This document shows positions 2,995 through 55,472 of a DNA stretch of 64,000 bases, piece after piece. Source of the stretch: Bryobacterales bacterium (GTDB lineage: Bacteria; Acidobacteriota; Terriglobia; Bryobacterales; UBA6623); assembly GCA_026713545.1 (NCBI GenBank), contig JAPOOG010000129.1, positions 1 to 64,000 of the forward strand. Direction: 5' to 3'. The notes below the pieces were generated by a model. It made no database searches and was not told the origin of the DNA. It saw only the letters and a list, made by a program, of their open reading frames with translations. Within the stretch, counting starts at the first letter, position 1. Each line of letters opens with the position of its first letter. The position numbers and the translations under genes are program-made.

Positions 2995-3056
2995 CCTGCA
3001 TTCTCAGGGCGTGCCGAGACGAAGTGTGCCGGACGGCCGGCAGGACGAGGCGCGCT
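2995..3056 (+). repeat. Family A dispersed element, degenerate left half (copy A1)
   Basis: The segment begins CCTGCATTCTCAG directly after CTAG and continues with the family A interior (CGAAGTGTG, GGCCGGCAGGACGAGGCGCG). The right half is missing. It abuts the stop codon of the MBL-fold gene. Confidence 0.7.
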
Positions 3057-3084
3057 CCGTAGCCACCCCGTAGAGACGGACATC

Positions 3085-3300
3085 CTACGGGAGCTTCGGC
3101 TTGGCATTCAGCAGCCGATGGTTTGAATACTCCGCCGCGGCGAGTTGGCCTCCCTCAACAGTAGAACTGTCCACGATACTGCCGGTCCCGTCTGCCTTGC
3201 CGTCGTTGAGCGAGAAGGTTCCCGTCCAGTTCCATCGCATGCGGAGTGCAGGGGGACGTCCTCGGGTTCGGGGTTCGGGTACGTCGCGTAGGGGGTGGCT
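3085..3300 (-). pseudogene. Remnant of S15-type (Xaa-Pro dipeptidyl-peptidase-like) peptidase
   Basis: On the minus strand, short reading frames give YATYPNPEPEDVPLH, then after a frameshift GTFSLNDGKADGTGSIVD and QLAAAEYSNHRLL, and then a stop at 3085-3087. This order matches the junction before the C-terminal jelly-roll domain of S15/CocE-type peptidases, with the motifs PLHL..GTFSLN and A.YSN.RLLY. Only about 65 codons remain, interrupted by at least one frameshift, so it cannot be functional. It lies just downstream of the symporter gene, while a second, non-identical fragment of the same family lies upstream of it (4527-5081). No similarity search was run. Confidence 0.5.
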
Positions 3301-3309
3301 TGCCCGCGC

Positions 3310-4530
3310 TCACCCGATCCTCATCCCGCCGGCTCGTCGTGTCACCCCGTCGACCGTAGTTGCGGCGGACATGTGGCCGATCACGTTGACCGCGGTGCGA
3401 AACGCATCCGGCACGCGGTCGATCCCCAGCAGAATGCCGAGCCCTGCGAGTGGCACGCCCACTACGTCGAGAGCCGGTGCCATCGAAACGATGCTGGAGC
3501 TGGGAACCGGTGCGACCGTCATTGATGCGAGGAAGATCGCCAGCACTGCTGCCGCGATCAGTCCCGCGTCGAGCGGTACCCCGTACATGGCGGCGAGAAA
3601 GACCAGCGACGTGCTCTGAAACAGTGCGCTGCCCGGGCGGTTGATCGACGCTGCCAGCGGCAGGACCAGCGAGAAACTGCTCTTCGAAAGGCCCAGCTTC
3701 TCCGCCTCCCTCAGCATCATCGGTAGCGTTCCCACCGATGTCGTCGTGGTGAAGCCCACCGTGTAGGTGCCCACCGTCGCGCGCATGAACCGCCCCGGGG
3801 CCACGCCCCCCAGGATCCAGACTAGGGGCAGGAGCACGAGACCTTTCAGGAGGAAGAGACCCAGGACGGTGGCGCCGATAAAGACGGCAAGGTTCTGCAG
3901 CATCGCCATCCCGGTCTGTGCGACCACCGGAGCTGCAAGACCGAAGACGCCCACGGGCGCCGTCCACAGGATCCAGGTCATGAGCTTGATGAGCGCGTCC
4001 CCGAGCGTCTCGGCGAAGGACGTTAGCGTCTCCTGTTTCTCCTTCGGCAGCGTCGTCGTTGCCGCAGCAAGGAGGACGATGAAGATGAGGAGCGGGAGAA
4101 GGGATCCGTCAGCGGCGGCCTGGATCGGATTCCGGGGGACGAGGTTGACGAGAAAATCGACCACATCTGGTGCCGCGGTGTCCAAATCAGCCACGCTCGT
4201 GGGGGGCGGTATGGGAGCCGTGAAGGTCAGGGCGAATGTCATCACACCCATCCCGATCAGGATCGCGGGCAGGGTCGTAACCCAGAAGATGCCCAACGCA
4301 AGGCCCCCCTGCCGGCCCAGCTTGCGCAGGTTCCCGATCCGCGCCACCCCGACGAACACCACTGCCGCGACCAGCGGGATGACGACCATCTGGATCGCAC
4401 GCAGGAAGATCTGACCGAGCGGTTCGACAGCCTCGGAAGCCCGCAGGAGCGCCGGAGATCCGGTGGCCGAGGCGGCGACTCCGAGCCCTAGCCCGAGTGC
4501 CAGCCCGATGAGAATGGCGCTTGTATTCAC
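3310..4530 (-). CDS. Dicarboxylate/amino acid:cation symporter (DAACS family) with altered cation-site residues
   Basis: This 406-residue inner-membrane protein has the GltPh/GltP fold: about eight membrane segments, a serine/threonine-rich HP1 tip (TTTTSVGTLP), TM7, HP2 (APVPSSS) and TM8 with D..FRTAVNV. Family members import dicarboxylates or acidic amino acids with Na+ or H+. The substrate-side Asp and Arg of TM8 (equivalent to GltPh D394 and R397) are present. The TM7 NMDGT motif reads NRPGS and the TM8 aspartate equivalent to D405 is His (NVIGH), so two Na+-binding aspartates are lost. The start is GTG at 4530, overlapping the stop of the upstream peptidase remnant as GTGA, which points to a former operon. 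Confidence 0.9.
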   Translation of the reverse strand: MNTSAILIGLALGLGLGVAASATGSPALLRASEAVEPLGQIFLRAIQMVVIPLVAAVVFVGVARIGNLRKLGRQGGLALGIFWVTTLPAILIGMGVMTFALTFTAPIPPPTSVADLDTAAPDVVDFLVNLVPRNPIQAAADGSLLPLLIFIVLLAAATTTLPKEKQETLTSFAETLGDALIKLMTWILWTAPVGVFGLAAPVVAQTGMAMLQNLAVFIGATVLGLFLLKGLVLLPLVWILGGVAPGRFMRATVGTYTVGFTTTTSVGTLPMMLREAEKLGLSKSSFSLVLPLAASINRPGSALFQSTSLVFLAAMYGVPLDAGLIAAAVLAIFLASMTVAPVPSSSIVSMAPALDVVGVPLAGLGILLGIDRVPDAFRTAVNVIGHMSAATTVDGVTRRAGGMRIG

Positions 4531-53902: not shown

Positions 53903-54702
53903 GGAGCGTCCAGCGCGTGTGCGTGGATCAGATTGAAAGTGCGCCGCCAGCGGGTTTTGCCGAAGAAATTCAACAAAATGTCCGTAAGGTGCGTGAGTGA
54001 GATGCCGGTATCCTGGAGCCGTTCCGTGGGTGCATCGTAGGACCAGTAGATCAACAGCGGTTTGCCGATGATGTTTTCGCGGGGAACGAATCCCCAGTAG
54101 CGGCTGTCGAGCGACTGATCACGATTGTCGCCCATGGCGAAATAGTTGTTCGGTGGCACAACGATTTCGTTCCGTACGGCGTTCTGCCGGAGCATCTCCA
54201 GCGCGCGCTCGGGAATCGGCGTGTTGGGTTGTCCCGGGAAGTTGTCCCGGTATTGGTCGATGTAGGCCGTTCTGTGAATCACATACGGCTCGTCGACGGT
54301 TTGCCCGTTCAAAATAAGCTTCTTGTCAACCAGTCGAAGACGATCGCCCGGCAGGCCCACTACCCGCTTGACGAACGTCTGAGAAAGGTCCATCGGATAG
54401 CGGAAGACGATGATGTCGCCACGTTGTACGTCCTGGTAGGGCAGCAGATACTCATCGATCGAACCGTGAGGAGAATAGGCCAGCTTGTCGACCAGCAAGT
54501 GGTCGCCGATAAGCAGCGAGTCTTCCATCGATCCCGTGGGGATTACGAAAGCCTGCACGAGCGTCGTCGTGCCGAACAGGAGCAGGATGATCGTTACGGT
54601 CCACTCGGCGATGACACCGCGATGCGGAATGTCACGCGCCGCAGTTTTTTCCTCAGGGATTTCTGTGCTCTTGTGCTTGTTATCCGTTGACTGTGCCTTC
54701 AC
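53899..54702 (-). CDS. lepB: Signal peptidase I
   Basis: This 267-residue membrane protease removes signal peptides from exported proteins. The membrane helix (VTIILLLFGTTTLVQAFVI) is followed by the catalytic Ser box PTGSMEDSLLIGD, the Lys box TFVKRVVGLPGD and the late GDNRDQSLDSRYWGFV. The start chosen is GTG at 54702 because GAGGT lies 4-5 bp upstream; an alternative GTG at 54768 would add 22 residues. manC overlaps the 3' end by 4 bp. Many exported proteins in this window would be its substrates. Confidence 0.95.
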   Translation of the reverse strand: MKAQSTDNKHKSTEIPEEKTAARDIPHRGVIAEWTVTIILLLFGTTTLVQAFVIPTGSMEDSLLIGDHLLVDKLAYSPHGSIDEYLLPYQDVQRGDIIVFRYPMDLSQTFVKRVVGLPGDRLRLVDKKLILNGQTVDEPYVIHRTAYIDQYRDNFPGQPNTPIPERALEMLRQNAVRNEIVVPPNNYFAMGDNRDQSLDSRYWGFVPRENIIGKPLLIYWSYDAPTERLQDTGISLTHLTDILLNFFGKTRWRRTFNLIHAHALDAP

Positions 54703-55165
54703 ATCGACCTCGTAACCAGAGACCCATTGTAGCCAAACAGTCCGCTTTGTCCCACTCTTGCGTTTCACGGGTCGCAGCTTGCATCGGACTACTCACACGA
54801 GCTCTCTTATCAACTGAAGGACGTCCGGTGGACGGCTATTCGCCTTGACCTCGGAGGATCTACAGCGAGCGCTCTCGCCTGCTGATGGTTCACCGTTCGT
54901 CTACGCATCGGATCGTGGTATTCCGTGCAACGACAGGCTCTTGTTGGAACTGGGTCGCGGCCAAAAATCGTGATCAGAGCACACAAGGGTAAGGACAGGA
55001 ATTCTCCGAGTATTCTTTGATGCAACCAAAGATCATGGGAAGGCCCCCGACATGGCGCCGGGCGGAGATGGACTGCTTGTCAATGGCTCGAATCAACCTG
55101 AAAACCTCGTTATCTGTTTTTTTACGGATGGGTACTGGACTGTCCGCGGAGCGGCCGGACGATCA
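54703..55165. other. Intergenic region between lepB and tRNA-Leu
   Basis: No convincing gene is seen. A GTCCG/CGGAC stem lies near 55143-55163, downstream of the tRNA on its strand, but without a T-tract in that direction. If the longer lepB form is used, the first 66 bp are coding. Confidence 0.4.
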
Positions 55166-55250
55166 TGGTGCGAACGAGAGGACTCGAACCTCCACGGGTT
55201 GCCCCACTGGAACCTAAATCCAGCGCGTCTGCCAATTCCGCCACGTTCGC
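55166..55250 (-). tRNA. tRNA-Leu (anticodon UAG)
   Basis: On the minus strand the acceptor GCGAACG pairs with CGTTCGC, followed by A73 and an encoded CCA. The D-loop is GGCGGAATTGGCAGACGC. The anticodon stem CTGGA/TCCAG holds the loop TTTAGGT with anticodon TAG. A variable arm TGGGGCAACCCG and T-loop GGTTCGAGTCC complete the class II leucine tRNA. It reads CUA and, by wobble, other CUN codons. A family A copy ends only 25 bp upstream of its 5' end. A TAGAAT (55274-55269, minus strand) at the junction is a plausible -10 box. Confidence 0.97.
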
Positions 55251-55275
55251 ATCGCCACGATGATCCATATTCTAG

Positions 55276-55472
55276 CCAGCGTTTCTCACCACGTGGCGAG
55301 CTGAAGTGCGTGAGATGGCCGTCAGGACGAGGCGCGAGACGGGCGGAGGAAAAAGGCGCGTGCAGGCGTACTTGACAGTACGTCGAGCACGGCGAGCAAG
55401 CGTTGCGAAGGAAAAGCGAAGTCATGGTGGTCGTGTCGCGTTCTTCGGCCATCGGGTGGTGAGAAATGCAGG
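55276..55472 (+). repeat. Family A element, complete copy A14 (197 bp)
   Basis: The left end CCAGCGTTTCTCACCAC is slightly diverged; the right end GTGGTGAGAAATGCAGG is canonical. The interior contains GGCGGAGGAAAAAGGCGCG, the same subtype as A3. As in A3, the flanks are CTAG on the left and TCAG on the right. It lies directly upstream of tRNA-Leu, in the position of that gene's promoter. The rest of the gap 55473-55616 shows nothing. Confidence 0.92.

Follow-up and report, generated by a model that had tools for sequence, protein, structure and literature searches.

Family A, a putative mobile repeat of Bryobacterales with IS1380-type ends and a covarying hairpin interior

Copies of family A and their genomic context

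We analyzed the first 64,000 nucleotides of contig JAPOOG010000129.1 from a Bryobacterales bacterium (GenBank assembly GCA_026713545.1; this whole stretch is hereafter called the window), which carries many copies of a dispersed inverted-repeat element, family A. A preliminary description had counted at least 13 copies; about 13 places were confirmed, with ends and interior blocks at the positions first assigned to them. A profile built from 35 copies identified 11 copies in the window, every one on the + strand. The covariance model R2, also run on the window, added a minimal copy at 31238–31279, which consists of the two inverted ends alone in an end-to-end hairpin (no strand assigned; R2 E 4e-5), and a previously unlisted related element (R2 match span 44606–44773).

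All six full-length copies described earlier were recovered on the + strand: A2 at 12434–12617, including its 4-nt flanks (R2 E 2e-11); A3 at 14942–15146, a long form with two inserts of ~10 nt (R2 E 8e-23); A6 at 27391–27577, flanked by CTAG/CTAG (R2 E 4e-42); A10 at 38612–38806, flanked by TTAG/TTAG (R2); A13 at 52631–52814, flanked by CTAG/CTAG and folding as one hairpin (R2 and folding); and A14 at 55272–55476 (R2). To these we added a longer variant with a different center at 21682–21909 (+; R2 E 1.6e-12). In the sister genome Bryobacterales bacterium RHO3_bin_12 (JAPPLB01; G001), whose shared stretches are mostly 93–96% identical, the place of A2 is likewise occupied, A10 is absent and A14 corresponds to an empty site. 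Left-half copies lie on the + strand at 2992–3059 (profile E 4e-7), 27279–27365, adjoining A6 (E 1e-17), 34885–34966 (E 5e-14) and 41144–41211 (E 4e-16), and a lone right end with two mismatches was read from the sequence at 36699–36715 (+). The related element, a 158-bp unit at 44611–44768 (+), combines different terminal repeats, CAGTCCGTGGTGAAA, with the same hairpin core (R2 E 4e-12). The interior blocks of family A are conserved as first described, but the interior is not merely asymmetric; the whole unit is one imperfect palindrome.

Family A is not an artifact of this contig, as copies occur across the genome, mostly between genes. The exact 15-base end motif TGCATKTCTCACCAC occurs 139 + 136 times (275) in the 5.6-Mb genome, against 0 + 0 for a reversed-pattern control, and family A occupies 149 places, 60 of them at full length, in a sample of 1,195,182 bases (11 contigs, of which four were sampled in part; each palindromic copy counted once). 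Broken, half and composite copies are numerous, and the element has no coding capacity, judged by the length and decay of its frames. With a home-made gene caller, the midpoint fell inside a called gene for 2 of the 60 full copies, compared with 82% of random points. Gaps between converging genes, which make up 82 of 389 gaps, hold 21 of 57 full copies, and the gene upstream of a copy is codirectional in 88 of 146 cases.

Copy orientation is regional. Across window positions 12434–55476 and loci L047–L106, 29 of 30 full-length neighbors 1–15 kb apart lie on the same strand, against 9 of 17 further apart; the tendency is weaker elsewhere (21 to 9 in G001, 21/31 in G290, 18/25 in G437). We rejected replication direction as the cause of these runs: in the genome's own DNA, GC skew gave an odds ratio (OR) of 2.1 with p 0.047 at best, in G437 it had no effect and in G290 its sign was, if anything, opposite (p 0.05). 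Orientation in the own DNA correlates with local gene strand (OR 3.5) and AT skew (OR 0.26), in a set whose neighboring copies are not independent.

Insertion sites, ends and a candidate transposase

Comparison with G001 revealed four family A copies that are present in one genome only while both flanks are kept in the other, namely A14 in the own genome and three copies in G001. Three of these sites read clearly, and at one of them the duplication is clean, CTAA-element-CTAA facing a single CTAA. A fifth presence/absence difference, A10, is an apparent deletion in G001 through GCAGG microhomology. The ends could be read in 74 of 78 full copies; of these, 18 have exact direct 4-bp flanks, compared with 7.4 in shuffles (0/5000 reach 18), and none has 5-bp flanks.

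An insertion sequence (IS) with matching ends, which the earlier description had named as support for a miniature inverted-repeat transposable element (MITE), is present in the sister genome; the own genome has only partial matches to PF13701, the domain of the IS1380-family transposase. G001 carries two intact PF13701 matches within IS of about 1.72 kb. Their left ends read CTAG|CCTGCATTTCTCACCAG and CTAA|CCCGCATTTCTCACCAG, their right ends GGTGAGATATCCGGG|CTAG and |CTAA, and both are flanked by YTAR duplications. The left end is identical to that of family A in L254 and differs by one change in L248, and the right ends are related. Another PF13701 locus with clear inverted ends, TTAG|CCCGCATTTCTCAACA..GAGATATCCGGG|TTAG, lies in genome G373, which also matches the element model. 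Across 396 Acidobacteriota genomes, PF13701 was detected in 20 of the 56 that have the element and in 57 of the 340 that lack it (p 0.0018, relatedness not corrected).

Family A thus shares with IS1380-family IS the terminal repeats CCYGCATTTCTCACCA or CCCGCATTATTCATGA and the 4-bp YTAR duplications, and two family A-like elements (L277 and L281) share the TTCATGA end type; unlike these IS, it encodes no transposase, and its hairpin is absent from the IS examined. Using the covariance model R1, we found no hairpin core inside IS1380 elements at 32 loci; its matches there were confined to end-like stretches and a separate neighboring copy. The interior as a deletion product of an IS1380 element was therefore rejected, the core being missing from the IS at all 32 loci. 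The 4-bp target also recalls the eukaryotic piggyBac transposons, for which a passage in PMC10813416 gives the target TTAA with variants such as CTAA and TTAG, and IS1380 as outgroup. Taken together, the insertion polymorphism, duplications and ends suggest that family A is very probably a non-autonomous mobile element with IS1380-type ends.

A covarying hairpin and its wider distribution

The 184-nt family A unit is predicted to form one long hairpin (−117.2 kcal/mol, z −10.1), and the opposite strand folds at −93.9 kcal/mol (z −8.2). In an alignment of 25 chosen elements from several phyla, made without structure, compensatory changes occur at 51 of 62 predicted pairs. Paired cells amount to 93.1%, compared with 74.6% after shuffling and 31–43% when the pairing is slid by 1–3 columns; changes on both sides were observed in 258 cells, compared with 72.8 shuffled and 44–62 slid. 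Two unpaired motif pairs are conserved, GCGAG facing CGCAGTAG and CAAGGCG facing GCAACGC, though CGCAGTAG is missing from family A itself.

The two strands are not equivalent. The sense strand is the better fold in 94 of 95 family A copies, with a mean gain of 25 kcal/mol, and the consensus holds eight G-U pairs but a single C-A 1x1 mismatch. The motifs lie in the same sense on the strand that folds better in seven other lineages, the margin being only 3 kcal/mol in Nitrospira. This test covered 57 loci (23 sister-genome loci of 80 excluded), yielding 23 elements for which the strand was picked by lower energy beforehand; 15 carried both motifs, one carried one and seven carried neither. Four elements of 232–250 bp from other phyla (L149, L150, L199 and L216) have CCTGCATTTCTCACC ends and lack the two conserved motifs; the two from Rhodohalobacter are mutually similar.

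R1, built from 14 elements, matched 56 of 396 Acidobacteriota genomes and 38 of 211 genera at E <= 1e-5; among the positive genomes, the class of the window is represented by its own genome alone. A blast search among relatives found family A in 3 of 41, all of the same genus. The phylum-wide searches with R1 and R2 scored six candidates per genome, so that copy numbers are lower bounds; deeper scoring of six genomes gave 68, 48, 23, 10, 8 and 4 matches, in which the antisense match of a copy may also count. Where R1 and R2 match loci used to train them (L142, L210, L172 and L191, among others), they do so by construction. No similar DNA was found in phages (one query), plasmids (two queries) or E. 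coli (one query).

Searching 395 genomes from the phylum of a lake 'Deltaproteobacteria' metagenome-assembled genome, R2 matched 121 at E <= 1e-6; some matches are full length, and many are confined to about model positions 34–152. We collected 20 core-only loci from 15 genomes, with match lengths of 118–126 nt and one of 135 nt. Of two motif strings picked after the sequences had been inspected, GATGCAAGGCG is present within two changes in 18 of the 20 loci and GCAACGCAGCAGATG within three in 17; their ends differ, for example GGCTGTTCAAAAA..TTTTTCAACAGCC. When 18 of these loci were aligned with eight Acidobacteriota cores, 24 of 31 pairs covaried, with 184 both-side cells compared with 57.6 shuffled. 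The own genome provides a further case, as the 158-bp CAGTCCGTGGTGAAA-end elements carry the core at window 44611–44768 and at two more places in 1.2 Mb (R2 E 4e-12 to 7e-11 or better for the three). These sequences are best explained by an inner core of ~120 nt that is the older mobile module, found with other ends as well.

Rfam matched no family inside any element: at gathering scores the whole window gave rRNA and tRNA matches only, and in E-value mode (E <= 1 or 5; 24 loci) every match fell outside the elements. The earlier description did not recognize family A as any named family; the core appears to have been noticed before. A paper on Geobacter metallireducens (PMC2700814) lists 24 'predicted short RNA elements' of unknown function, located between genes, which share the center GRCGTAGCGCTGCTACGCC and have relatives in Desulfotalea. 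Like family A they are intergenic and multicopy, and their central palindrome fits the apical hairpin of the core, an identity judged from the center alone; in the passages on them, that paper mentions no terminal repeats, no transposase and no occurrence in other phyla. Among open-licence full texts, a literature that most subscription journals lie outside, no paper on an element with GCATTTCTCAC or GTGAGAAATGC was found, judged by title and abstract, and none that joins these facts.

Competing explanations and associated elements

On balance we think it probable that family A is a MITE moved in trans by an IS1380-family transposase, with an interior that forms a conserved strand-specific hairpin, most simply an RNA. 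This reading builds on what the sequences themselves show, namely the number of copies and their insertion polymorphism, IS1380-type ends with 4-bp duplications, a covarying and strand-asymmetric interior, and the occurrence of the core with other ends. Both earlier suggestions, a high-copy non-autonomous element and a structured intergenic repeat, are supported at once, the former by mobility and ends and the latter by the covarying hairpin. The transposase would recognize CCYGCATTTCTCACCA-type ends, insert at YTAR sites and move family A in trans. The sense strand of the interior, a hairpin of about 184 nt including the 4-nt flanks, would fold as RNA in the cell, and this RNA may raise the chance of mobilization or tolerance, possible means being to hold the transposase or its mRNA or to render insertions into transcripts harmless.

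The variants among copies suggest where such an effect would act. Transitions at Watson-Crick pairs in 95 copies gave 267 G-U changes, which keep the pair, and 119 A-C changes, which break it. Among variants found in up to five copies the counts were 94 and 68 (p 0.049), and in up to two copies 38 and 38; these numbers are modest, and shared variants are non-independent events. Since pairing survives in widely shared variants but not in recent ones, the structure seems to matter in the spreading lineage rather than in resting copies, which is why we propose that it raises the chance of mobilization or tolerance. Selection on the interior structure during spread is quite likely.

Several observations weigh against this account. 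At two of the empty sites, TTAA and TTAT stand in place of the CTAG/CTAG and CTAG/TCAG that flank the occupied ones, and inverted 4-bp flanks are raised as well (16 compared with 8.4). Transposition of piggyBac involves hairpin-overhang chemistry, and IS1380 may, like piggyBac, carry a 4-nt overhang over from the donor site, which would produce such odd flanks. The candidate mover is also patchy: none of the eight partial PF13701 matches in the own genome is intact, and the longest has an internal stop codon; 7 of 14 element-bearing genomes, which are incomplete drafts, have no PF13701 match and several of the matches are fragments; and clear inverted ends with YTAR-like flanks were observed at only 3 of 22 further PF13701 loci. 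Single-copy variants comprise 12 G-U and 22 A-C changes (p 0.12), indicating no RNA constraint in resting copies. Finally, a DNA hairpin would produce covariation too.

This last point leads to an ordinary MITE whose hairpin matters as DNA alone, either because a single-stranded or cruciform form aids transposition or because template switching at the replication fork corrects the arms, with no RNA function. Strong folding of both strands, private mutations free of pairing constraint and regional orientation, which would fit a strand-specific DNA process, all agree with it. Against it stand unpaired motifs conserved across phyla, G-U pairs in a single sense and the agreement in sense of all lineages bearing the motifs, and GC skew does not account for the orientation. 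We regard this alternative as unlikely and tentatively favor RNA over single-stranded DNA as the active form. The intergenic placement, the copies between converging genes and the codirectional upstream genes would also suit a structured RNA of use to the host, or an mRNA 3′ element (terminator, stabilizer or regulator), spread on transposon ends by chance and kept for its function site by site. Such an origin is improbable, given that private mutations show no preference for keeping pairs over breaking them, that copies differ between sister species and that so many are broken, halved or composite. Least credible is a REP/REPIN repeat that owes its spread to a RAYT (Y1) transposase, an origin which the high copy number, the palindromic form, the intergenic position and the CTAG tetranucleotide beside the hairpin bring to mind; family A is longer than REP/REPIN repeats, has 4-bp duplications and matches an IS1380 element. 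A RAYT origin was rejected, as the own genome gave no Y1_Tnp (PF01797) match in a search whose control detected the domain in E. coli and four further genomes, five of 14 in all.

Among bacterial MITEs, of which a passage in PMC3733652 names NEMIS, RUP and Nezha, family A resembles the known families in being short and noncoding, with terminal inverted repeats and many intergenic copies, and differs in an interior that is conserved, covaries across phyla and occurs with other ends. From an ordinary deletion-derived MITE it would be set apart by the conserved strand-specific hairpin. Bacterial MITEs are usually seen as decayed transposons with information-free interiors. To our knowledge, a conserved covarying interior with exchangeable ends is not usual among them; that of family A, structured across phyla, looks constrained while spreading and not afterwards. 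Going further, the ~120-nt core might be a widespread selfish RNA module that, by a logic like that of short interspersed nuclear elements, swaps terminal repeats and rides different DNA transposases, the RNA being needed for spread; we offer this tentatively and consider it doubtful. Its end types would comprise IS1380 (Acidobacteriota and others), CAGYCCGTGGTG (the same genome) and other ends in another phylum. Scattered multicopy repeats would then share one explanation with predicted RNAs. A testable question follows, namely whether there are RNA-structured parasites of transposases in bacteria, and the material for testing it includes two covariance models, a matching transposase and sites known in both occupied and empty form.

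Two larger units were rejected as autonomous copies of family A. A 1622-bp unit with perfect family A ends (C13:33316-34937; L039:2317-3938) is an IS110-family element (PF01548 and PF02371, in two overlapping frames) nested in a family A copy, precisely at its center within the apical CGTACTT|GAC, and a 1469-bp pair (C48:81236-82704) consists of one copy's left end and the following copy's right end, separated by other sequence. A second insert lies at the same family A center at C48:104767-105236, and the hairpin may be a target for IS110 elements.

A composite class of ~270–280 bp joins the family A left half up to the center, and the right end, to a different middle with CACGAATCACGAGACACGAA-like repeats (C102:135416-135687, 136214-136487 and 141526-141799; C28:17815-18093; C48:167370-167652). 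Other elements of 260–351 bp have CAGYCCGTGGT-type ends, YTAR-like flanks and another interior (window 30831–31181; C48:165850-166109; C101:66609-66868; C102:52850-53190). Elsewhere in the window, positions 1–785 contain a 5S rRNA gene and the 3′ end of a 23S rRNA gene. A palindromic unit of ~115 bp, CTAGACATTATGGAGTGACCTGTCC..GGACAGGTTACTCCATAATGTCTAG, at 52521–52636 abuts A13, and G001 carries at its place a piece with a CTAGCAGTCCGTGGTG end instead.

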